Part shown: positions 2,145 to 15,860 of the stretch, piece after piece
How the letters are laid out: each line of letters starts with the position of its first letter
Position numbering within the stretch: position 1 is the first letter of the stretch
Origin: an uncultured Clostridia bacterium
GTDB taxonomy: Bacteria > Bacillota > Clostridia > Christensenellales > Borkfalkiaceae
Direction: 5' to 3'
Assembly: GCA_944372515.1 (NCBI GenBank)
Contig: CALVZM010000056.1
Span: forward strand, 1-39,979
Length of the DNA stretch: 39,979 bases
Translations under genes and position numbers: made by a program
Notes under the pieces: generated by a model
Databases searched by the model: none
What the model saw: the letters and a program-made list of their open reading frames with translations, nothing else
Told to the model about the DNA's origin: nothing

Positions 2145-3671
2145 ATGAGCAAGAGCACTTTCATCCGGACGGCGGCGCTGGTTACCGTCCTTTCCATCTG
2201 TGAACGCGGACTCGGTTTTTTGTACCGCATCATCCTCTCGCGCACCGTCGGTCCGGAAGGGCTGGGCATCTATCAGTTGTCCCTGTCCGTCTTTGCGGTG
2301 CTCGTTACCGCGACCTCCTCGGGCATTCCCATCACCGTTTCGCGGCTCATCTCCAAGTACCGCGCGGGAAAAAATCCCTATGCCGAGCGGCAGACGGTTA
2401 CCGCCGCGGTCTGCATCACGCTCGCCTTTGCCGTGCCCGTCTTTCTCGCCCTGTGGCTGCTCGGCGACAGTCTTGCCTTTCTCTTCTCGGACGAACGGTG
2501 CACACAGGTCTTTCTGATCCTGCTCTACGGCTTTGTCTTTACTTCCGTCTATGCCGTCGTGCGCGGCAGTTTCTGGGGAAACAAACAGTTCCTTGCCTAT
2601 TCCGTCATTGAATTTATTGAAGAATCGGTCATGATCGCCGTGGGATCGCTGCTCGTCGTGCATATGACGGACGTGCTGGACGGCGCGCGGCGGGCGGCGT
2701 TCGCCGTGGTCATTTCCTACCTGGTCTCCTTCACGATCTCCATGATCTATTTCTTCGTGAAGGGGGGCAAATTCGTCAATCCGCACGGACAATTCAAGCC
2801 CCTCCTCTCCTCCGCCATGCCCATCACCGCTATGCGCACGTCCACTTCGCTCATCAATTCGCTGATCTCCGTGCTTCTGCCCGCGCGGCTCATCTTAGGC
2901 GGCATGACGTCGGCGGAAGCCATGACGGAATATGGCGTCGTTCTGGGCATGGCTATGCCCGTTTTGTTCATGCCCTCGACCATCATCGGCTCGGTCGCGC
3001 TGGTGCTGACGCCCGAACTTTCGGACAATTTTTACCGCGGGCAGCACGAGAGGCTGAAAGGCAACATCGAAAAAGCCCTGCAAATCACCATCCTCGTCGC
3101 CTGCACGCTGATCCCCTTCTTCTTCGTCTTCGGTGCCGACGCGGGCATGCTGCTTTTCACCTCGGCGTCCAGCGGCGAGATCATACGCAACTGCTGCCTC
3201 ATGCTCCTGCCCATGTCCCTGTCGCTGATCACCACGAGCATGCTCAATTCCCTCGGCTGCGAAAAACATACCCTCGTCAACTTCCTCGTCGGGGCGGCGG
3301 TCATGCTGGCGTGCGTCTGGTTCCTGCCCCCTTACATCGGCATCTACGGTCTGTGCCTCGGACAATTCCTCGATCACACCGTTTGCAGCGCGCTCAACCT
3401 GCGCCTGCTGCATAAAAAATGCGTGCGCAAACCCGTCTTTGCCGCCTTCTTCCTCAAAGCGGCGGCGATCACCCTGCCGGAAGCGGGGCTGGGGGTCCTG
3501 CTCTATCCCCTCTTCCGCAGCGCGATGCATCCCTGGCTCGCCATTGCCGCCGCCGCAGCCGCCATGCTGCTCATGCAGGCGATCCTGTTGCGGTGCACGG
3601 GCATCTACCGTTTGTTTTTCAAAAATAAATCCGAAAAAAATCTGTTGGCAAAGGGGCTGAAATCCGTTTGA
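2145..3671 (+). CDS. SpoVB/MurJ-type polysaccharide or lipid II flippase (MOP superfamily)
   Basis: A 508-residue polytopic membrane protein. The N-terminus includes RGLGFLYRIILSRTVGPEG, which matches the start of SpoVB and YtgP/MurJ-type proteins (R-x-LGFxYRIxLSRxxGPEGLGxYQL). About 14 hydrophobic segments follow across the length, the usual topology of multidrug/oligosaccharidyl-lipid/polysaccharide (MOP) flippases. Known members move undecaprenyl-linked glycans such as lipid II across the membrane; SpoVB does so for spore cortex synthesis. The sequence alone cannot separate SpoVB from a vegetative MurJ paralogue. The Shine-Dalgarno is weak (TAGAG before ATG). The last codons overlap the -35 box of the pgi promoter, so there is no room for a terminator between the genes. 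Confidence 0.88.
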   Translation: MSKSTFIRTAALVTVLSICERGLGFLYRIILSRTVGPEGLGIYQLSLSVFAVLVTATSSGIPITVSRLISKYRAGKNPYAERQTVTAAVCITLAFAVPVFLALWLLGDSLAFLFSDERCTQVFLILLYGFVFTSVYAVVRGSFWGNKQFLAYSVIEFIEESVMIAVGSLLVVHMTDVLDGARRAAFAVVISYLVSFTISMIYFFVKGGKFVNPHGQFKPLLSSAMPITAMRTSTSLINSLISVLLPARLILGGMTSAEAMTEYGVVLGMAMPVLFMPSTIIGSVALVLTPELSDNFYRGQHERLKGNIEKALQITILVACTLIPFFFVFGADAGMLLFTSASSGEIIRNCCLMLLPMSLSLITTSMLNSLGCEKHTLVNFLVGAAVMLACVWFLPPYIGIYGLCLGQFLDHTVCSALNLRLLHKKCVRKPVFAAFFLKAAAITLPEAGLGVLLYPLFRSAMHPWLAIAAAAAAMLLMQAILLRCTGIYRLFFKNKSEKNLLAKGLKSV

Positions 3672-5247: not shown

Positions 5248-5370
5248 CGGGAAAAAGCAACGACGGCAATCCCCCTTTTGAGCGGCAATTTTTTCCGAAA
5301 AAAGAAGGTATAAAAAACAAAACAGCGGGCAATACTGTCAGTGCAACAGGCAATCCGCCCGCATTTTACA

Positions 5371-5376
5371 TATAAT
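5371..5376 (+). promoter_or_regulatory. -10 box of the mazF-like gene
   Basis: TATAAT 42 bp upstream of the mazF ATG, in an AT-rich patch. No convincing -35 at 17 bp. Confidence 0.45.
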
Positions 5377-5418
5377 AAAGCAAGGGCGTATTGCAAAAGA
5401 AGCGAGGCGGAAAAAACC

Positions 5419-5772
5419 ATGAACATCAAACGAGGAGAACTCTATTACGCCGATCTGTCGCCCGTAGTCGGCAGCGAACAGGGCGGCGTGCGCCCCGTGC
5501 TGGTCGTACAGAACAACGTGGGCAACCGCTATTCCCCCACGGTCATCGCGGCGGCGGTTACCAGCAAACAGAACAAGGCAAAACTGCCCACGCACATCGA
5601 ACTGCCTTCCTCCTTCGGACTGGCGAAAGACAGCGTTATCTTGCTGGAACAGATCCGCACCCTGGACAAAAAGCGGCTCAAAGAGCGCATCGGCGAACTG
5701 TCCGACGATACCATGAGTTTGGTCAACAAAGCCATTCTCATCTCGCTCGGATTCATCGATACCCGACAATAA
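5419..5772 (+). CDS. MazF/PemK-family (NdoA-like) mRNA interferase
   Basis: A 117-residue protein from ATG 5419 ([16 protein letters not shown]). It has the family sequence [38 protein letters not shown], then LPTHIEL, the [11 protein letters not shown] strand and the RIGEL/LV-KAI-ISLG tail of Bacillus NdoA/EndoA. Known members are sequence-specific ribosome-independent endoribonucleases (UACAU for the Bacillus enzyme). The catalytic Arg (in RPVLV) and the Thr of AAAVTSK are present. GAGGCGG about 8-11 nt upstream supports this ATG; an upstream GTG at 5341 lacks support. There is no antitoxin ORF of about 90 codons between the pgi terminator and this gene, so it is an orphan toxin or its partner lies elsewhere. 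The stop codon overlaps the start of the terminator stem. Confidence 0.92.
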
Positions 5773-8589: not shown

Positions 8590-8618
8590 TTGACGAAAAG
8601 GACGAATTGAGATATACT
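8590..8618 (+). promoter_or_regulatory. Sigma-A promoter of the glycosylation operon
   Basis: TTGACG (8590-8595), a 17-bp spacer and TATACT (8613-8618). The leader to the first ATG is about 30 nt and contains AAGGAG. Confidence 0.87.
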
Positions 8619-8654: not shown

Positions 8655-9896
8655 ATGGAAAAAACAACCAGAAAAATCAGAGAATACGGCTTGAAGGACT
8701 TTATCAAAGTGCTGCGCGGGAATTGGCTGACCCTGCTGCTTTGCGTGCTGCTGACGGCTGCCGTCCTGGGCGGCTCGCTCGGCTGCGTCTCCGCCTTTAT
8801 CCGGCACAACGAATATTCCGCGACCATCGCCAAAGTGGACACGGCGACCTTTGACGTCCCCGTCGTGCGCGCCTCGCTGCGCGACCACATCGAGGTCATT
8901 CTGAAAGAGAAATATCCCCACAACGGTCTGAGCGACAAGGATTTCAACGACCTGAGCAATGCGGTGAACGCCCACCTGAGCCTCAGCGAAAACCCCGAAG
9001 GGACGTTCGCTTTCACCCTCTCCTCTTTCGATGCCAAACAGGTCCATATGTCGCAGGACGATTTCAAGGACATCCTCAACCGGATCATCGACTGGTACAA
9101 AGAATCCTACACGGATAAGATCGTAACCAGTTACCTCATCAAGGCATCCGCCATCGGCGAGAGCACCAAAAAACTCACCTATTATCTGCAAATACGGACG
9201 CTGGAAAACACCATCGACAGCCTGATCGGAGAAGTGCGGATCGTGGCGGGCATGGAGCAGATGCCCGGAATCGACATTTCCGACACGACGATCTCCTCTT
9301 CCACCACCGTGGACCGCTCGGAATTTGCCGCCTATTACTGCGAAGAAAACGGCAAGCGCGTGAACGACATTCTGACCGATCTGGAAAATCTCGACGCCGC
9401 CGTTGCCGCCGCGCGGGCGTTCGTCTGCAACAACGGCGTGGAAAATCCTGCCGCCTCTGCCAGCATGCAGGACTATATCGACGGGGAACTGCTCAAATAT
9501 CCCGTCGAAACGCAGGATGCCGTGTTGACGCAACTGAAAGGTCTGTTCGGGGACGATTCCCCCTACAACCAAGCGGATGCCGACGGCAAAACGGAGTTGG
9601 AAACGGGCACGCAGACGCGCATCGACGCCATCGTTTCCTCTTTGCAGACCATCTTGGACGATTATAATCTCCTCGCCCGCAGTTATGCCGCATCCACCAT
9701 TCCCAACTATGTCATCATCTCCACCCTGACGACGGACGAAGACCTGGGCGCCATCGCGCCGTTCGCCGTGGTGCTCATCACCGCCGCGTGCGCGATCGTC
9801 GCCTTCCTCATCGGCTTTTTCGTCTCTTTCAGCCGGATGCAGAAAGCGGGCGAGATCGGTATCGAACTCGTGGAAGAATCGGGCGAAGAAGCCTGA
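8655..9896 (+). CDS. Wzz-like two-TM membrane protein, first gene of the glycosylation operon
   Basis: A 413-residue protein with one TM segment near residues 26-50 (LTLLLCVLLTAAVLGGSLG), a long extracytoplasmic stretch of about 310 residues with helical, partly coiled-coil character, and a second TM near 365-390 ending in a short acidic cytoplasmic tail. This N- and C-terminal TM pattern is that of polysaccharide co-polymerases (Wzz/CapA), which set glycan chain length, but no kinase domain and no classical PxxP-TM2 motif is seen. The specific family is therefore not certain. It is the first of four genes driven by the promoter at 8590. AAGGAG lies about 14 nt from the ATG, a long gap, and GGAG could pair with the CTCC just after it. 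Context suggests a role in surface-glycan assembly. Confidence 0.7.
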   Translation: MEKTTRKIREYGLKDFIKVLRGNWLTLLLCVLLTAAVLGGSLGCVSAFIRHNEYSATIAKVDTATFDVPVVRASLRDHIEVILKEKYPHNGLSDKDFNDLSNAVNAHLSLSENPEGTFAFTLSSFDAKQVHMSQDDFKDILNRIIDWYKESYTDKIVTSYLIKASAIGESTKKLTYYLQIRTLENTIDSLIGEVRIVAGMEQMPGIDISDTTISSSTTVDRSEFAAYYCEENGKRVNDILTDLENLDAAVAAARAFVCNNGVENPAASASMQDYIDGELLKYPVETQDAVLTQLKGLFGDDSPYNQADADGKTELETGTQTRIDAIVSSLQTILDDYNLLARSYAASTIPNYVIISTLTTDEDLGAIAPFAVVLITAACAIVAFLIGFFVSFSRMQKAGEIGIELVEESGEEA

Positions 9897-9982
9897 CGGT
9901 CCGCCGCGGTCTCCTCACACAAAAAACGCAAAAACCGTCCGCCGCGCCGACCTTTTCCGCGGCGGCAGGAGAATTTGGAACC

Positions 9983-10495
9983 ATGAGAGCCTTTCTTGCA
10001 AATTTACGCGCAAAATACCCCACGCTGACGGAAATTTTCCGCTTTCTGGTCGTGGGCGGCATTGCCACCGTTGTGGACATGCTCGTGATGGCGTTCGTGC
10101 AATACCTCTTCGAGCCCGCCCTCTATCCCGACTTTCTCTCCCTCTTCACCGAAAAGGACGTTTCGCCCGCCGCCTATATCACCGGCACGGCGTGCGGCTT
10201 CACCGTCGGGCTGGCGGTCAATTACGCCCTCTCCTGCCTGTTCGTCTTTGAACACCGCGGCAGGAGCCGTTCCCCTTACGGGTTTGCGGTATTTGCCCTG
10301 CTCTCTCTGGGCGGGCTTGCCCTGCACGTTCTGGGCATGTATCTCGGCAACGGCGTGTGGGGGTTCAACGGCTGGGCGGTCAAGATCGTTCTGACCCTCG
10401 TCGTGCTGGTCTATAACTATCTCACCAAACGGCTCCTCCTCTTCCGGGAAGAGAAAAACACAAACGAAAAAACGGAGAAAGTACGCCATGATTAA
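9983..10495 (+). CDS. GtrA-family polyprenyl-phosphate-sugar flippase
   Basis: A 170-residue protein with four TM helices. FRFLVVGGIATVVDM (about residues 20-34), a second helix with GLAVNYALSCLFVF, and the C-terminal NYLTKRLLLF are the conserved parts of GtrA. Known GtrA proteins flip undecaprenyl-phosphate-linked glucose or similar across the membrane in O-antigen or teichoic-acid modification. CAGGAG 11 nt upstream fixes ATG 9983; a longer frame from 9788 runs inside the upstream gene and is rejected. The stop overlaps the start of the next gene (ATGATTAA), so the two are translationally coupled, which is the usual gtrA-gtrB order. Confidence 0.9.
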   Translation: MRAFLANLRAKYPTLTEIFRFLVVGGIATVVDMLVMAFVQYLFEPALYPDFLSLFTEKDVSPAAYITGTACGFTVGLAVNYALSCLFVFEHRGRSRSPYGFAVFALLSLGGLALHVLGMYLGNGVWGFNGWAVKIVLTLVVLVYNYLTKRLLLFREEKNTNEKTEKVRHD

Positions 10496-11459
10496 ATATT
10501 CTTTCGTCGTGCCCGCCTACAACGAAGAGGAATCCCTCTCCCTGTTTTACAGGCATGCCATGCCCGTATTCGAGCGGTTGGACGGAGAGTTTGAAATCAT
10601 CTTTGTCAACGACGGGAGCAGCGACGGCACGGCAGACATTCTCAAACAACTGTGCGCGAAGGACAAGCGCGTCAAAGGCATCTCCCTCAGCCGCAATTTC
10701 GGGCAGCAAAGCGCCCTTCTGTGCGGGCTGGCGCACGCGCGGGGCGAAGCCGTCGTCGCCATGGACGCCGATTTGCAGGACCCGCCCGAAGTCGCCCTGC
10801 AAATGATCGAAAAATGGAAAGAAGGCTTTGAGATCGTGCACGCACGGCATAAAAAACGCGCCAAAGAGACCGTTTTCAAACGGCTGACGGCGTTCCTCTA
10901 TTACCGCACGCTGAAAAAGGCAACGGGGCTTGACCTGCCTTTGGACTGCGGGGATTTCAAACTTCTCGGCCGCAAGGCGGCGGACGCCGTTTTGTCCCTG
11001 CACGAGCACGCGCGCCTTCTGCGCGCGCAGAGCGTGTGGCTCGGATTCAGACAGACGGTCATCGAATTTGACCGCCCGGAGCGCGTTGCGGGGAAGAGCA
11101 AATATACCCTGCAAAAGATGCTGCGCCTGGCAAAGAGCGGCATCATTCCCAACAGCCGCGCTCCCCTCTCCTTCCCGCTCCAAGCGGGCATCGCGCTCTG
11201 TCTGCTGTCCGTCGCCGCCTTCATCGTTCTCGGCGTGCTCACGGGCATGGGCATCGGATACGGCGGGCTGACCGCCTGGCTCTTCCCCGCCCTCGCGCTG
11301 ACCGCGGGGATCCTCTCCCTGAATACGGGGCTGCAAAACCTGTATATCGCCGAAATTTACGAAGAGGGCAAGAACAGACCGCACTTCGTCGTTTCGGAAA
11401 CTTATAACCTGCCCGAAGCGTCTCCAAAAAACGGCGGCAACGAGGGGGAGCATGCATGA
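10488..11459 (+). CDS. GtrB/DPM1-like family 2 glycosyltransferase
   Basis: A 323-residue enzyme. GT-A motifs in order are VPAYNEEE (8-15), VNDGSSDGT (40-48), SLSRNFGQQSA (66-76) and the DxD region MDADLQDPPE (92-101). RVAGKSKYTLQKM is the conserved C-terminal part of the catalytic domain, and two TM helices follow (about 224-250 and 260-285). This is the architecture of bactoprenol glucosyl or mannosyl transferases (GtrB, CsbB, DPM1). They move a sugar from a nucleotide donor to undecaprenyl phosphate on the cytoplasmic face. The gene overlaps gtrA by 8 bp and the GT-C gene by ATGA, so the three products are likely made together. The sugar cannot be told from the sequence. Confidence 0.92.
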   Translation: MIKYSFVVPAYNEEESLSLFYRHAMPVFERLDGEFEIIFVNDGSSDGTADILKQLCAKDKRVKGISLSRNFGQQSALLCGLAHARGEAVVAMDADLQDPPEVALQMIEKWKEGFEIVHARHKKRAKETVFKRLTAFLYYRTLKKATGLDLPLDCGDFKLLGRKAADAVLSLHEHARLLRAQSVWLGFRQTVIEFDRPERVAGKSKYTLQKMLRLAKSGIIPNSRAPLSFPLQAGIALCLLSVAAFIVLGVLTGMGIGYGGLTAWLFPALALTAGILSLNTGLQNLYIAEIYEEGKNRPHFVVSETYNLPEASPKNGGNEGEHA

Positions 11460-12688
11460 AATTCGCGTCAAATTTTCGGGAGACCTACGGCGAAAAACTC
11501 CTCGCTTTGTATAAAAAATACGAATATCCGCTGTTTGCCGCCGCCTTTCTCGCCGTCGCCGTGATCATGCGGCTATGCATTTTCGACCATCATTCCAACG
11601 ACTATGATATGTTCCTGTCCGTCTGGTTTGAAGAGATCAAAGCGGCGGGCGGACTGAGCGCACTCGCCGCCGACCTGGGCGACTATACGCCCATGTATAA
11701 ATACATCATCACCCTGCTCACTTTCCTGCCCGTCAACAGCCTGTACTCCTACAAAGCGGTGTCCTGCCTGTTCGACGTCGTCATGGCGATCTATGTGGGG
11801 TTGATCGTGCGGCAACTCGGCGGGAGCAAATTGAAAGGGCTGCTGGCGTATGCCGCCGTTCTCTTTCTGCCGAACGTGTTCCTGAACAGCGCGGTCTGGG
11901 CGCAATGCGACGCCATTTTTACCTGTTTTTGCATCATGAGTTTTTACTACATGCTGAAAAACATGGACAATGTTTCCGTTGCGCTCTATGCCGTGGCGTT
12001 TTCCTTCAAATTGCAGGCGATCTTTTATGCGCCGGTCATCGTCGTCGCAATCCTGCGCAAGCGGCTGAATCTGCGTTCCCTGCTCGGCTTTCCGCTGACC
12101 TATTTCCTGTGCGGGCTTCCCGCCTGGATCGCGGGTATGTCCTTTTTCGACGCCTATTTCGCCGCCTATTGCACGCAGGTGGGAGAATATCCCATTCTGA
12201 CGCTGGGCGCGATGAATCTCTATCAACTGCTGCCTTTCAACTATACTTATGAAAACCTGGGACGCCTGCTGGTGTTCTTCTCCGTCGGCGTATGCGCCAT
12301 GTTCTGCCTGTTCTTTTATAAGAAGAACTATGCCGAACGGAAGGAAAATTGGGTGATCATCGCCTATACGATGACCACCTTGCTGCCCTTCGTTCTGCCC
12401 CATATGCACGAACGGTATTTTTACATCTCCGACATCTTTGCCGTGCTGTTTGCTTTTACCTTTCCGAAAAAGATCTACATCCCCGCGGCGACCGTATATG
12501 CCTCGCTGCGCGCGGTGGCGTCGTCTCTGTTCGGCGCGCAGGACCTGTCCTTCCCCGCCGTCGCCTTTCTGGAATTTGCGGCGATCGTGGCGCTCTGCCT
12601 CTTCGCCTTCCGACAATTGAGCGACAAAGGCAAGGGAAAACGGCAACTGCCGCCCCTGCCGCCGACGCGGGAAGAAACAACCGAATAA
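11456..12688 (+). CDS. GT-C family polyprenyl-phosphate-sugar-dependent glycosyltransferase
   Basis: A 410-residue polytopic protein with about 10 TM segments. The acidic cluster DHHSNDYDMF (44-53) sits just after the first TM, where GT-C enzymes keep their catalytic Asp residues; YTPMYKYI follows in the first loop, and HMHERYFY lies in a late TM/loop. HERYFY is characteristic of GT39/GPI-mannosyltransferase-like GT-C proteins. Such enzymes take a sugar from a polyprenyl-phosphate donor outside the membrane and attach it to a glycan or protein. With the upstream GtrA and GtrB-like partners, this completes a three-component glycosylation system. A C-terminal Pro-rich tail follows the last TM. 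The start overlaps the previous stop (ATGA) and a terminator follows directly. Confidence 0.85.
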   Translation: MKFASNFRETYGEKLLALYKKYEYPLFAAAFLAVAVIMRLCIFDHHSNDYDMFLSVWFEEIKAAGGLSALAADLGDYTPMYKYIITLLTFLPVNSLYSYKAVSCLFDVVMAIYVGLIVRQLGGSKLKGLLAYAAVLFLPNVFLNSAVWAQCDAIFTCFCIMSFYYMLKNMDNVSVALYAVAFSFKLQAIFYAPVIVVAILRKRLNLRSLLGFPLTYFLCGLPAWIAGMSFFDAYFAAYCTQVGEYPILTLGAMNLYQLLPFNYTYENLGRLLVFFSVGVCAMFCLFFYKKNYAERKENWVIIAYTMTTLLPFVLPHMHERYFYISDIFAVLFAFTFPKKIYIPAATVYASLRAVASSLFGAQDLSFPAVAFLEFAAIVALCLFAFRQLSDKGKGKRQLPPLPPTREETTE

Positions 12689-12693
12689 ACCAA

Positions 12694-12723
12694 AAAAAAA
12701 GAAGGCAGCCGCCTTCTTTTTTT
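12694..12723. terminator. Terminator of the glycosylation operon, bidirectional
   Basis: AAAAAAAGAAGGC / GCCTTCTTTTTTT with an AGCC loop, 5 nt after the operon's last stop. It can also serve the convergent aldo-keto reductase. Confidence 0.93.
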
Positions 12724-12783
12724 CATCCTCGGTGCCCCCCTGCCGCCGCACGCGGCGAGCACGAGGAAAGGGAAAACAAACAA

Positions 12784-13829: not shown

Positions 13830-15860
13830 TCAAAGGGACGGCACGCCCGCGACATAAGACGCCATCTGTTTTTTCTGTCCGCCGGAAGGATAGGGCTTGA
13901 CGATGCCCTCCCCCGCGTCGTTCACGAAGTGCAGGATCCCCGCGCCGTCTGGCGCCGAAAAGACGGAAAGGGCAATATGGTACAGTGCGATCTGCCCCGC
14001 CGCAGGCGCTTCCACCGCATGGTCGAGAACGTAGACCGCGCCGTCCGACACGAAGTATACCCCGATGCCGTAAGCCGTGTGCTTTTGCACTTCGTCGGCG
14101 ATCTTATAACTTGCATATCCGAAGTAACGCGTCCCCCGCCACTCGGACATCCACGCCGACTGTTCGGGGACTTCATAGGGCGTTTCGGACTGATAGAACG
14201 CGACAAACCCGTTTTCACCCTTCCAGATCGTCTGATATTCGTGGAAATGCTCGCCCATCAGTCCGTAAACGGTTACGTCGTCGCCGTTGACGACGACTCC
14301 GTTCTGCGTTACGTTGACATCCCAGCCGACGCCGTCGGTGTGGTCCCCGCGCCAGACCCAGAAATTGTCGCCCAGCACGTTGCAGGCGTTGATGACCAAT
14401 GCCTGCCGCACATACGTCGGCGCATCCCGCGCCCCGCCGATGCGGAAAAATACGTCGCTGCACGCGATGGGCGCATCGGCATGCGAAATGCCCGTATAAC
14501 CCGCGCCGAGGCGCAGCAGGTTTTCGCTGTGCGTTCCCGCCTCAAAGAGCAATCCGCCAAGCAGAATGCCGTCCGCGTCGGCGACTTCCATCGCCGTGTC
14601 GCGGTTGCCGCCCGCGATGCGCAGCGTCGTCAAGCCGCAGCCCAGGATCACCGTGCCCGCGTTCTCCACGCGCAGGGGCGCGTCAATGTCGTAGATCCCG
14701 GGCGTGAAGAAGAGATGTTTGCCCGCCGCCAGAGCGGCATTGAGGGTCTTTGCCGTGTCGCGGTCGGAGCGCGCCACATAAAAATCCTGCAACGGGATGT
14801 AGCGGTTTGACAAACTTTGATCGTCCGCACTCGGACCGACGGCGTTCCTGCGCAGCGCGGGAACGCAGACGTAATATCCGTCGTCGAAGACCAAAAAGGG
14901 CTTTTCCTGCACGACGGGCGTCTTTTCGACCGTTACGCTCTCCAATCCGTTGATGCCCTCTGCGGGCACGGGACTGTCGGCAGACGGACCGACAAAGGTC
15001 AGGTTGATGTCCCCGCCCTGCCAGCCGCCCCAATCGCTGTTGCGGGTCAGCCACTGCTGCTGCACGCCCGCATCGATGAGCCCTTCGACGCGGCTGTCGG
15101 CGATGAATCCGCCCGAACCCCAGGAATTGCTCTTCCCTTCCGTCAGGAACATATCCCCGAGGACGTTCATCCGCCGGAAAGAAGTCGCCTGCGACGCCGC
15201 CCAGAGCACGTCCCCGCGGACGGTCATGTTCTCCGCCGCGAACCAGAAGTTGCACGTCCCGTTGCCGTTCGGAAGTTGCGCGGGCACGCGCAGTCCGTCC
15301 ACGGCAACGTCTTCGGACGTTTTTCCCAATCCCCCGATCGTCATGTAATAGCGGAGCGTGCATTGCAGACCGTCATAACTGCCCGCCTTGAAGAACGCCG
15401 CAAACCGCGCGGAAGAAAACTGCCCCGTCCGTTCGTAAGCCGCGGCAAAGTCCTCTTCCACCGAAGCAAGGTCGTCCGTCGGCGCGTAAATGTACATATT
15501 CTCCCCGAAAGTTTCCGTTTCGTAAGAGAGCAGTTCGCTGTGGATGACCTGCCCCTCCGCCACCGCGTCCACGCGGAAATAGCCGTAGGCGTCCTCATGC
15601 TCATACGTCCTGCCCTTCTGCCGCGATACCTGTTCATACCTTCCGTAGCGGCTCGGGCTGTGGTATATGACATATTCCTGCGCGCCCTTGACTTTGGTCA
15701 GCGTCAGTTTCACGCCCGTATCGGTCAGTTCCGCCTGCGTTTCCCATACGGGCGGTTTCGGGGCGCACGCCGCGATCGGCAGCGCCGATGCCGCCGCCAG
15801 CAAAAAACAGACCGCCAGCGCTACAAGACGCTCTTTGATTCCTCTTCCTCCCGTTTTCAC
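13830..15860 (-). CDS. Secreted lipoprotein with a GH55/pectate-lyase-like beta-helix domain
   Basis: A 676-residue protein. A signal peptide with a lipobox (LPIAAC, Cys32) predicts a membrane-anchored lipoprotein. Residues about 38-110 look like a fibronectin III-type module. The rest is a right-handed beta-helix, with repeated short strands such as GTVILGCGLTTLRIAGG, ADADGILLGGLLFEAG and QALVINACNVLGDNFWVWR, and a late GENGFVAFYQSETPY block. From memory this pattern matches uncharacterised actinobacterial and Firmicutes proteins related to GH55 exo-beta-1,3-glucanases, so a glycan-directed role is likely, but no catalytic residue can be named. The GTG start at 15860 is supported by GGGAGG 7 nt upstream. 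The product is probably exposed on the cell surface. Confidence 0.75.
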   Translation of the reverse strand: MKTGGRGIKERLVALAVCFLLAAASALPIAACAPKPPVWETQAELTDTGVKLTLTKVKGAQEYVIYHSPSRYGRYEQVSRQKGRTYEHEDAYGYFRVDAVAEGQVIHSELLSYETETFGENMYIYAPTDDLASVEEDFAAAYERTGQFSSARFAAFFKAGSYDGLQCTLRYYMTIGGLGKTSEDVAVDGLRVPAQLPNGNGTCNFWFAAENMTVRGDVLWAASQATSFRRMNVLGDMFLTEGKSNSWGSGGFIADSRVEGLIDAGVQQQWLTRNSDWGGWQGGDINLTFVGPSADSPVPAEGINGLESVTVEKTPVVQEKPFLVFDDGYYVCVPALRRNAVGPSADDQSLSNRYIPLQDFYVARSDRDTAKTLNAALAAGKHLFFTPGIYDIDAPLRVENAGTVILGCGLTTLRIAGGNRDTAMEVADADGILLGGLLFEAGTHSENLLRLGAGYTGISHADAPIACSDVFFRIGGARDAPTYVRQALVINACNVLGDNFWVWRGDHTDGVGWDVNVTQNGVVVNGDDVTVYGLMGEHFHEYQTIWKGENGFVAFYQSETPYEVPEQSAWMSEWRGTRYFGYASYKIADEVQKHTAYGIGVYFVSDGAVYVLDHAVEAPAAGQIALYHIALSVFSAPDGAGILHFVNDAGEGIVKPYPSGGQKKQMASYVAGVPSL

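Follow-up and report, generated by a model that had tools for sequence, protein, structure and literature searches.

A predicted four-gene surface glycosylation unit with a genus-restricted Wzz-like partner in Clostridia

The four genes at positions 8655-12688 of the window, by which we mean the whole analysed stretch of 39,979 nucleotides (contig C56 of a 1.57-Mb genome assembly, 96.6% complete), probably form one transcription unit for extracytoplasmic glycosylation, in which a side-branch route is joined by a genus-specific, co-polymerase-like partner acting on the same polymer. The GT2 enzyme would move a sugar from its nucleotide donor to undecaprenyl phosphate at the cytoplasmic side, GtrA would carry the lipid-linked sugar in what is presumably the outward direction, and GT-C, in which an Asp just behind TM1 is conserved, would hand it to an acceptor at the surface, for which a Wzy-type polysaccharide or some other polymer of the cell wall is the likeliest candidate. 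The Wzz-like protein, a putative divergent member of the Wzz superfamily that appears to be membrane-anchored by its N- and C-terminal helices, would most likely be a scaffold or a length/assembly factor for the same polymer, co-regulated with its decoration. Three-component systems are known for decorating finished polymers, and Wzz proteins for controlling length in Wzy polymerisation; should the two be coupled here, one operon would link the decoration of a polymer with its assembly. Gene identity, key residues, gene order, a conserved promoter box and co-occurrence within the genus are all read from the sequence, and the monosaccharide side-branch function of the operon is likely.

All four genes predicted by the initial annotation were found on the + strand at these coordinates, in the order Wzz-like, GtrA, GT2 and GT-C. 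The first gene (8655-9896) encodes a 413-aa protein with two TM helices, a remote relative of the Wzz/polysaccharide co-polymerase proteins; the second (9983-10495) encodes a GtrA-family membrane protein of 170 aa with 4 TM helices, a putative flippase of the lipid-linked sugar; the third (10488-11459) encodes a GtrB/DPMS-type GT2 of 323 aa with two C-terminal TM helices, a predicted polyprenyl-phosphate sugar synthase; and the fourth (11456-12688) encodes a polytopic GT-C glycosyltransferase of 410 aa. The genes had been described as overlapping, which holds for GtrA and GT2 (8 bp) and for GT2 and GT-C (4 bp), but not for the Wzz-like gene. A longer GtrA frame starting at 9788 was rejected in favour of the ATG at 9983, from which the relatives align and which has an AGGAG upstream; with this start, the Wzz-like stop (9896) and the GtrA gene are separated by 86 bp. 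A candidate sigma-A-type promoter box, TTGACG-17-TATACT (8590-8618, + strand, 10/12 consensus matches), lies 5' of the Wzz-like gene. Taken alone, the count of such boxes in the region is no higher than in shuffled sequence, but the same box, again with a 17-nt spacer, also precedes the Wzz-like gene in three other genomes of the genus (G037, G022 and G004). The operon is closed by a terminator-like, A/T-flanked hairpin (12693-12724, both strands) between the GT-C gene and a convergent aldo/keto reductase gene; its - strand form comes from the terminator listing, and its + strand form, a hairpin followed by a T run, was read from the sequence.

The GtrA and GT2 proteins are readily assigned. 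GtrA matches Pfam PF04138 with 56 bits (cut-off 26.1), GT2 matches PF00535 with 111 bits, above the cut-off, and residues 2-308 of GT2 align with the Synechocystis GtrB sll0501 (PDB 5ekp/5eke) at an E value of 8e-64. The residues of the Synechocystis enzyme that have been probed by experiment (PMC4728340) were used for mapping GT2. The D94, D96, D157, R125, K132, A136, Y140, R200 and A216 residues of GtrB are all kept, so that GT2 resembles the Synechocystis enzyme over its full length and in most of the juxtamembrane residues, and retains the DXD motif and the equivalent of the catalytic acid D157. It differs from GtrB by R122H, L212M and R290E in all four genus copies, at positions which are essential in the Synechocystis enzyme (PMC4728340).

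The GT-C protein alone gave no Pfam match. A profile of its 11-sequence family matched GPI mannosyltransferase 1 (PIG-M) chains 23gx_B/23gf_B with an E value of 3e-9, five of the eleven relatives matched GT87, and Asp49, located just after TM1, and Arg320 are invariant columns of the family. The window protein, which is bacterial and by itself falls below detection, is related to PIG-M (GT50) and GT87 at the level of the family profile. The copies of the window genome (G000) and G004 are 59% identical. Based on the identities of GtrA, GT2 and GT-C, three of the four genes correspond to a standard three-component system, and the three-component route proposed earlier is backed by the profile matches and the conserved catalytic residues, with the function predicted.

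Conservation within the genus separates the GT-C gene from the other three. The Wzz-like, GtrA and GT2 genes occur together in four of the five genus genomes (G000, G004, G022 and G037) and all three are absent from the fifth (G050), but the GT-C gene accompanies them only in G000 and G004. It was not found in G037 or G022, and no remnant is present in the slot, which is occupied in G022 by adjacent genes for a DNA methylase (PF01555) and for a 266-aa protein lacking a Pfam match and in G037 consists of about 365 bp to the next gene. Thus, the four-gene order is conserved for the first three genes and breaks at the fourth, and we dropped GT-C as part of the conserved core. The loss of GT-C with retention of the others suggests that the core is composed of Wzz-like, GtrA and GtrB, and that the transferase is exchangeable; in G037 and G022 either a different enzyme would carry out the last step or the three remaining genes would serve another purpose. 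The question raised at the outset, whether the first gene is conserved with the other three, is answered in two parts: the Wzz-like gene is tightly kept with GtrA and GT2, and GT-C is the dispensable member. The same four genes stand in the same order in G004 among other flanking genes, and this linkage argues that the unit is held by more than a shared neighbourhood. If decoration and assembly are indeed coupled, comparing members of the genus that have GT-C with those that lack it could show, as an experiment of nature, which protein is served by the Wzz-like partner. The G022 slot (L010, G022:C52, 13090-15010) has AT-rich flanks and looks like a small inserted modification/restriction island.

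The Wzz-like protein required more sensitive comparison. Hydropathy places its TM helices near residues 16-34 and 362-380, flanking a large extracytoplasmic region, as in the Wzz topology proposed initially, and no Pfam or NCBIfam match exceeded the cut-off: Pfam Wzz (PF02706) gave 10.4 bits (E 0.86; cut-off 25.5), and its relatives reached 22.4 bits at best in A2, an alignment of 14 sequences, and 25.1 bits in the related L163. In hhalign comparison against a canonical Wzz profile, built from 16 proteins found via PF02706 within the same order, the 4-sequence genus profile scored 94% (E 1e-7), as compared to 0.2-5% for reversed profiles, GtrA, GT2 and GT-C. After splitting, the signal proved to be N-terminal only, and a whole-protein likeness to canonical Wzz was abandoned. 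The N-terminal 60 aa alone scored 87.9% against the 16 canonical proteins, the first 55 aa as a 4-sequence profile scored 95.7%, and the ectodomain alone scored 1.4%. Among 110 control ORFs with an N-terminal TM helix, the best non-Wzz score was 53.9%, and every control above 60% was itself a two-TM Wzz-like protein. The family that the initial annotation had left unclear thus becomes a specific remote homology: judged from these profiles, the protein is a remote Wzz relative in its N-terminal helix and TM1, i.e., at the membrane-entry module. Structural comparison of the 413-residue protein, also suggested earlier and here directed at the alpha/beta base domain and helical ectodomain of a Wzz fold, added little to this N-terminal match, since the model, built with one relative, had a pLDDT of 44 and the family profile gave chance-level matches only against solved structures. 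The pN/pS values between the window and G037 (0.33 for wzz-like, 0.31 for gtrA and 0.26 for gt2) indicate purifying selection, which argues that wzz-like is a real gene. As compared to the Wzz/co-polymerase family (PF02706; YveK/CpsC type), the protein shares an N-terminal amphipathic segment with TM1, two TM helices and an external domain, but has a larger ectodomain, a C-terminal helix that matches weakly and no BY-kinase neighbour, and stays below the Pfam cut-off.

Outside the genus, GtrA is common, being present in 10 of the 18 genera of the family and in 270 of the 391 genomes of the class sample. We fetched 79 GtrA loci outside the genus and re-identified GtrA by profile in 64, none of which had a Wzz-like gene within 3 kb, as compared to four of four in the genus; the 15 further loci, in which GtrA was not re-found by profile, held no ORF matching the Wzz-like profiles. 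A general association of GtrA-GT2 pairs with Wzz-like genes was therefore rejected, the claim that the pairing is unusual was borne out within Clostridia, and the Wzz-like/GtrA/GT2 partnership was found only in one genus among the genomes checked. Distant Wzz-like relatives (17-21% identity) occur in family f6 and genus g7, none of them beside GtrA or GT2. In five f6 loci (L045, L047, L050, L054 and L056) the Wzz-like two-TM genes follow a conserved run of Fe-ADH, Fe-ADH and QueH-like genes. None of the GT-C relatives in other families adjoins GtrA, and a GT2 match lies within a few kb of a single one of them (L140). Away from GtrA loci, the GT-C relatives are arranged as tandem pairs or triplets at L131, L132, L134 and L135, which belong to other families of the order.

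These distant relatives bear on a different reading, in which the Wzz-like protein has an unrelated function as a general scaffold or sensor of the envelope and a common promoter is its only tie to the side-branch glycosylation system. It would fit their neighbours, which are QueH, Fe-ADH, DbpA-type helicase or BioY genes rather than glycan genes, the absence of Wzz signal in the ectodomain together with the poor structure model, and the faster evolution of the Wzz-like protein relative to its neighbours (69/50/37% identity as compared to 75/78/69% for GT2). We consider it unlikely, because the N-terminal Wzz match is specific against the 110 controls, co-occurrence with GtrA and GT2 is strict in the genus with a linkage that survives other flanks in G004, and one distant relative (L051) adjoins a Wzy_C/O-antigen ligase gene. 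The missing GT-C genes of G037 and G022 and the R122H, L212M and R290E changes of GT2 count against the preferred reading, a side-branch route with a co-polymerase-like partner on the same polymer, as do the lack of ectodomain signal, the low pLDDT and the distant relatives without GtrA or GT2.

In the Gtr systems (phage/Shigella gtrABX; Gram-positive GT-A/GtrA-type flippase/GT-C; PMC8035078), a GtrB-type Und-P-sugar synthase, GtrA and GT-C are encoded together and GT-C is the exchangeable part, as in the window operon, which differs in being led by the Wzz-like two-TM protein. The review, which deals with multi-component glycosylation in Gram-positive bacteria, uses neither the term "Wzz" nor the term "chain length", and no pairing of GtrA with Wzz or a co-polymerase was apparent in those parts of the open literature covered by full-text searches. 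The sugar-attachment part is of a known kind, and the operon with its Wzz-like partner is, as far as it goes, a lineage-specific variant and not a new class. The Lactobacillus johnsonii FI9785_241/242 genes (PMC7117936) likewise form a GtrA-GtrB pair in a Gram-positive bacterium, but there an entire glucan depends on them; the term "Wzz" is absent from that paper.

A bolder extension, that the undecaprenyl-phosphate-monosaccharide route (GtrB/GtrA/GT-C) has acquired a co-polymerase-like protein and that one complex would run both polymer length/assembly and extracytoplasmic transfer, possibly with direct external polymerisation of monosaccharides, seems quite improbable. A polymerising GT-C, which would join undecaprenyl-phosphate monosaccharides into a homopolymer on the outside of the cell with the Wzz-like protein as its length-setting co-polymerase, was kept as a rival since the L. 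johnsonii pair is essential for the whole branched glucan EPS1 (PMC7117936), and it would suit the coupling of a co-polymerase-like gene to the GtrA/GtrB pair in all four genus genomes carrying the pair, but we regard it as very doubtful, as the known GtrABX systems add single sugars and the Wzz-like gene persists without GT-C in G037 and G022, the opposite of what a polymerase and its co-polymerase predict.

The genome also encodes components of polymer assembly elsewhere, including two Wzy_C genes (C71) and Wzx-family genes on C93 and C65, with one more in the window at 2145-3671. In addition, a canonical Wzz gene, distinct from that of the operon, stands ahead of a BY-kinase-like gene (C72:476-2132), the kinase identity being read from sequence. 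These Wzy-family and Wzx-family genes and the canonical Wzz and BY-kinase-like pair make a polymer acceptor plausible, and the canonical Wzz on C72 means that the Wzz-like protein of the operon is not the only co-polymerase of the genome. Elsewhere in the window, a MazF/PemK-type gene (5341-5772, + strand; PF02452, 124 bits) lies between the glucose-6-phosphate isomerase and alcohol dehydrogenase genes. A 676-aa predicted lipoprotein without a Pfam match is encoded at 13830-15860 on the - strand, and it is tandemly duplicated in the sister loci L003 (10659-12662 and 12777-14777) and L010 (16268-18316 and 18409-19806).
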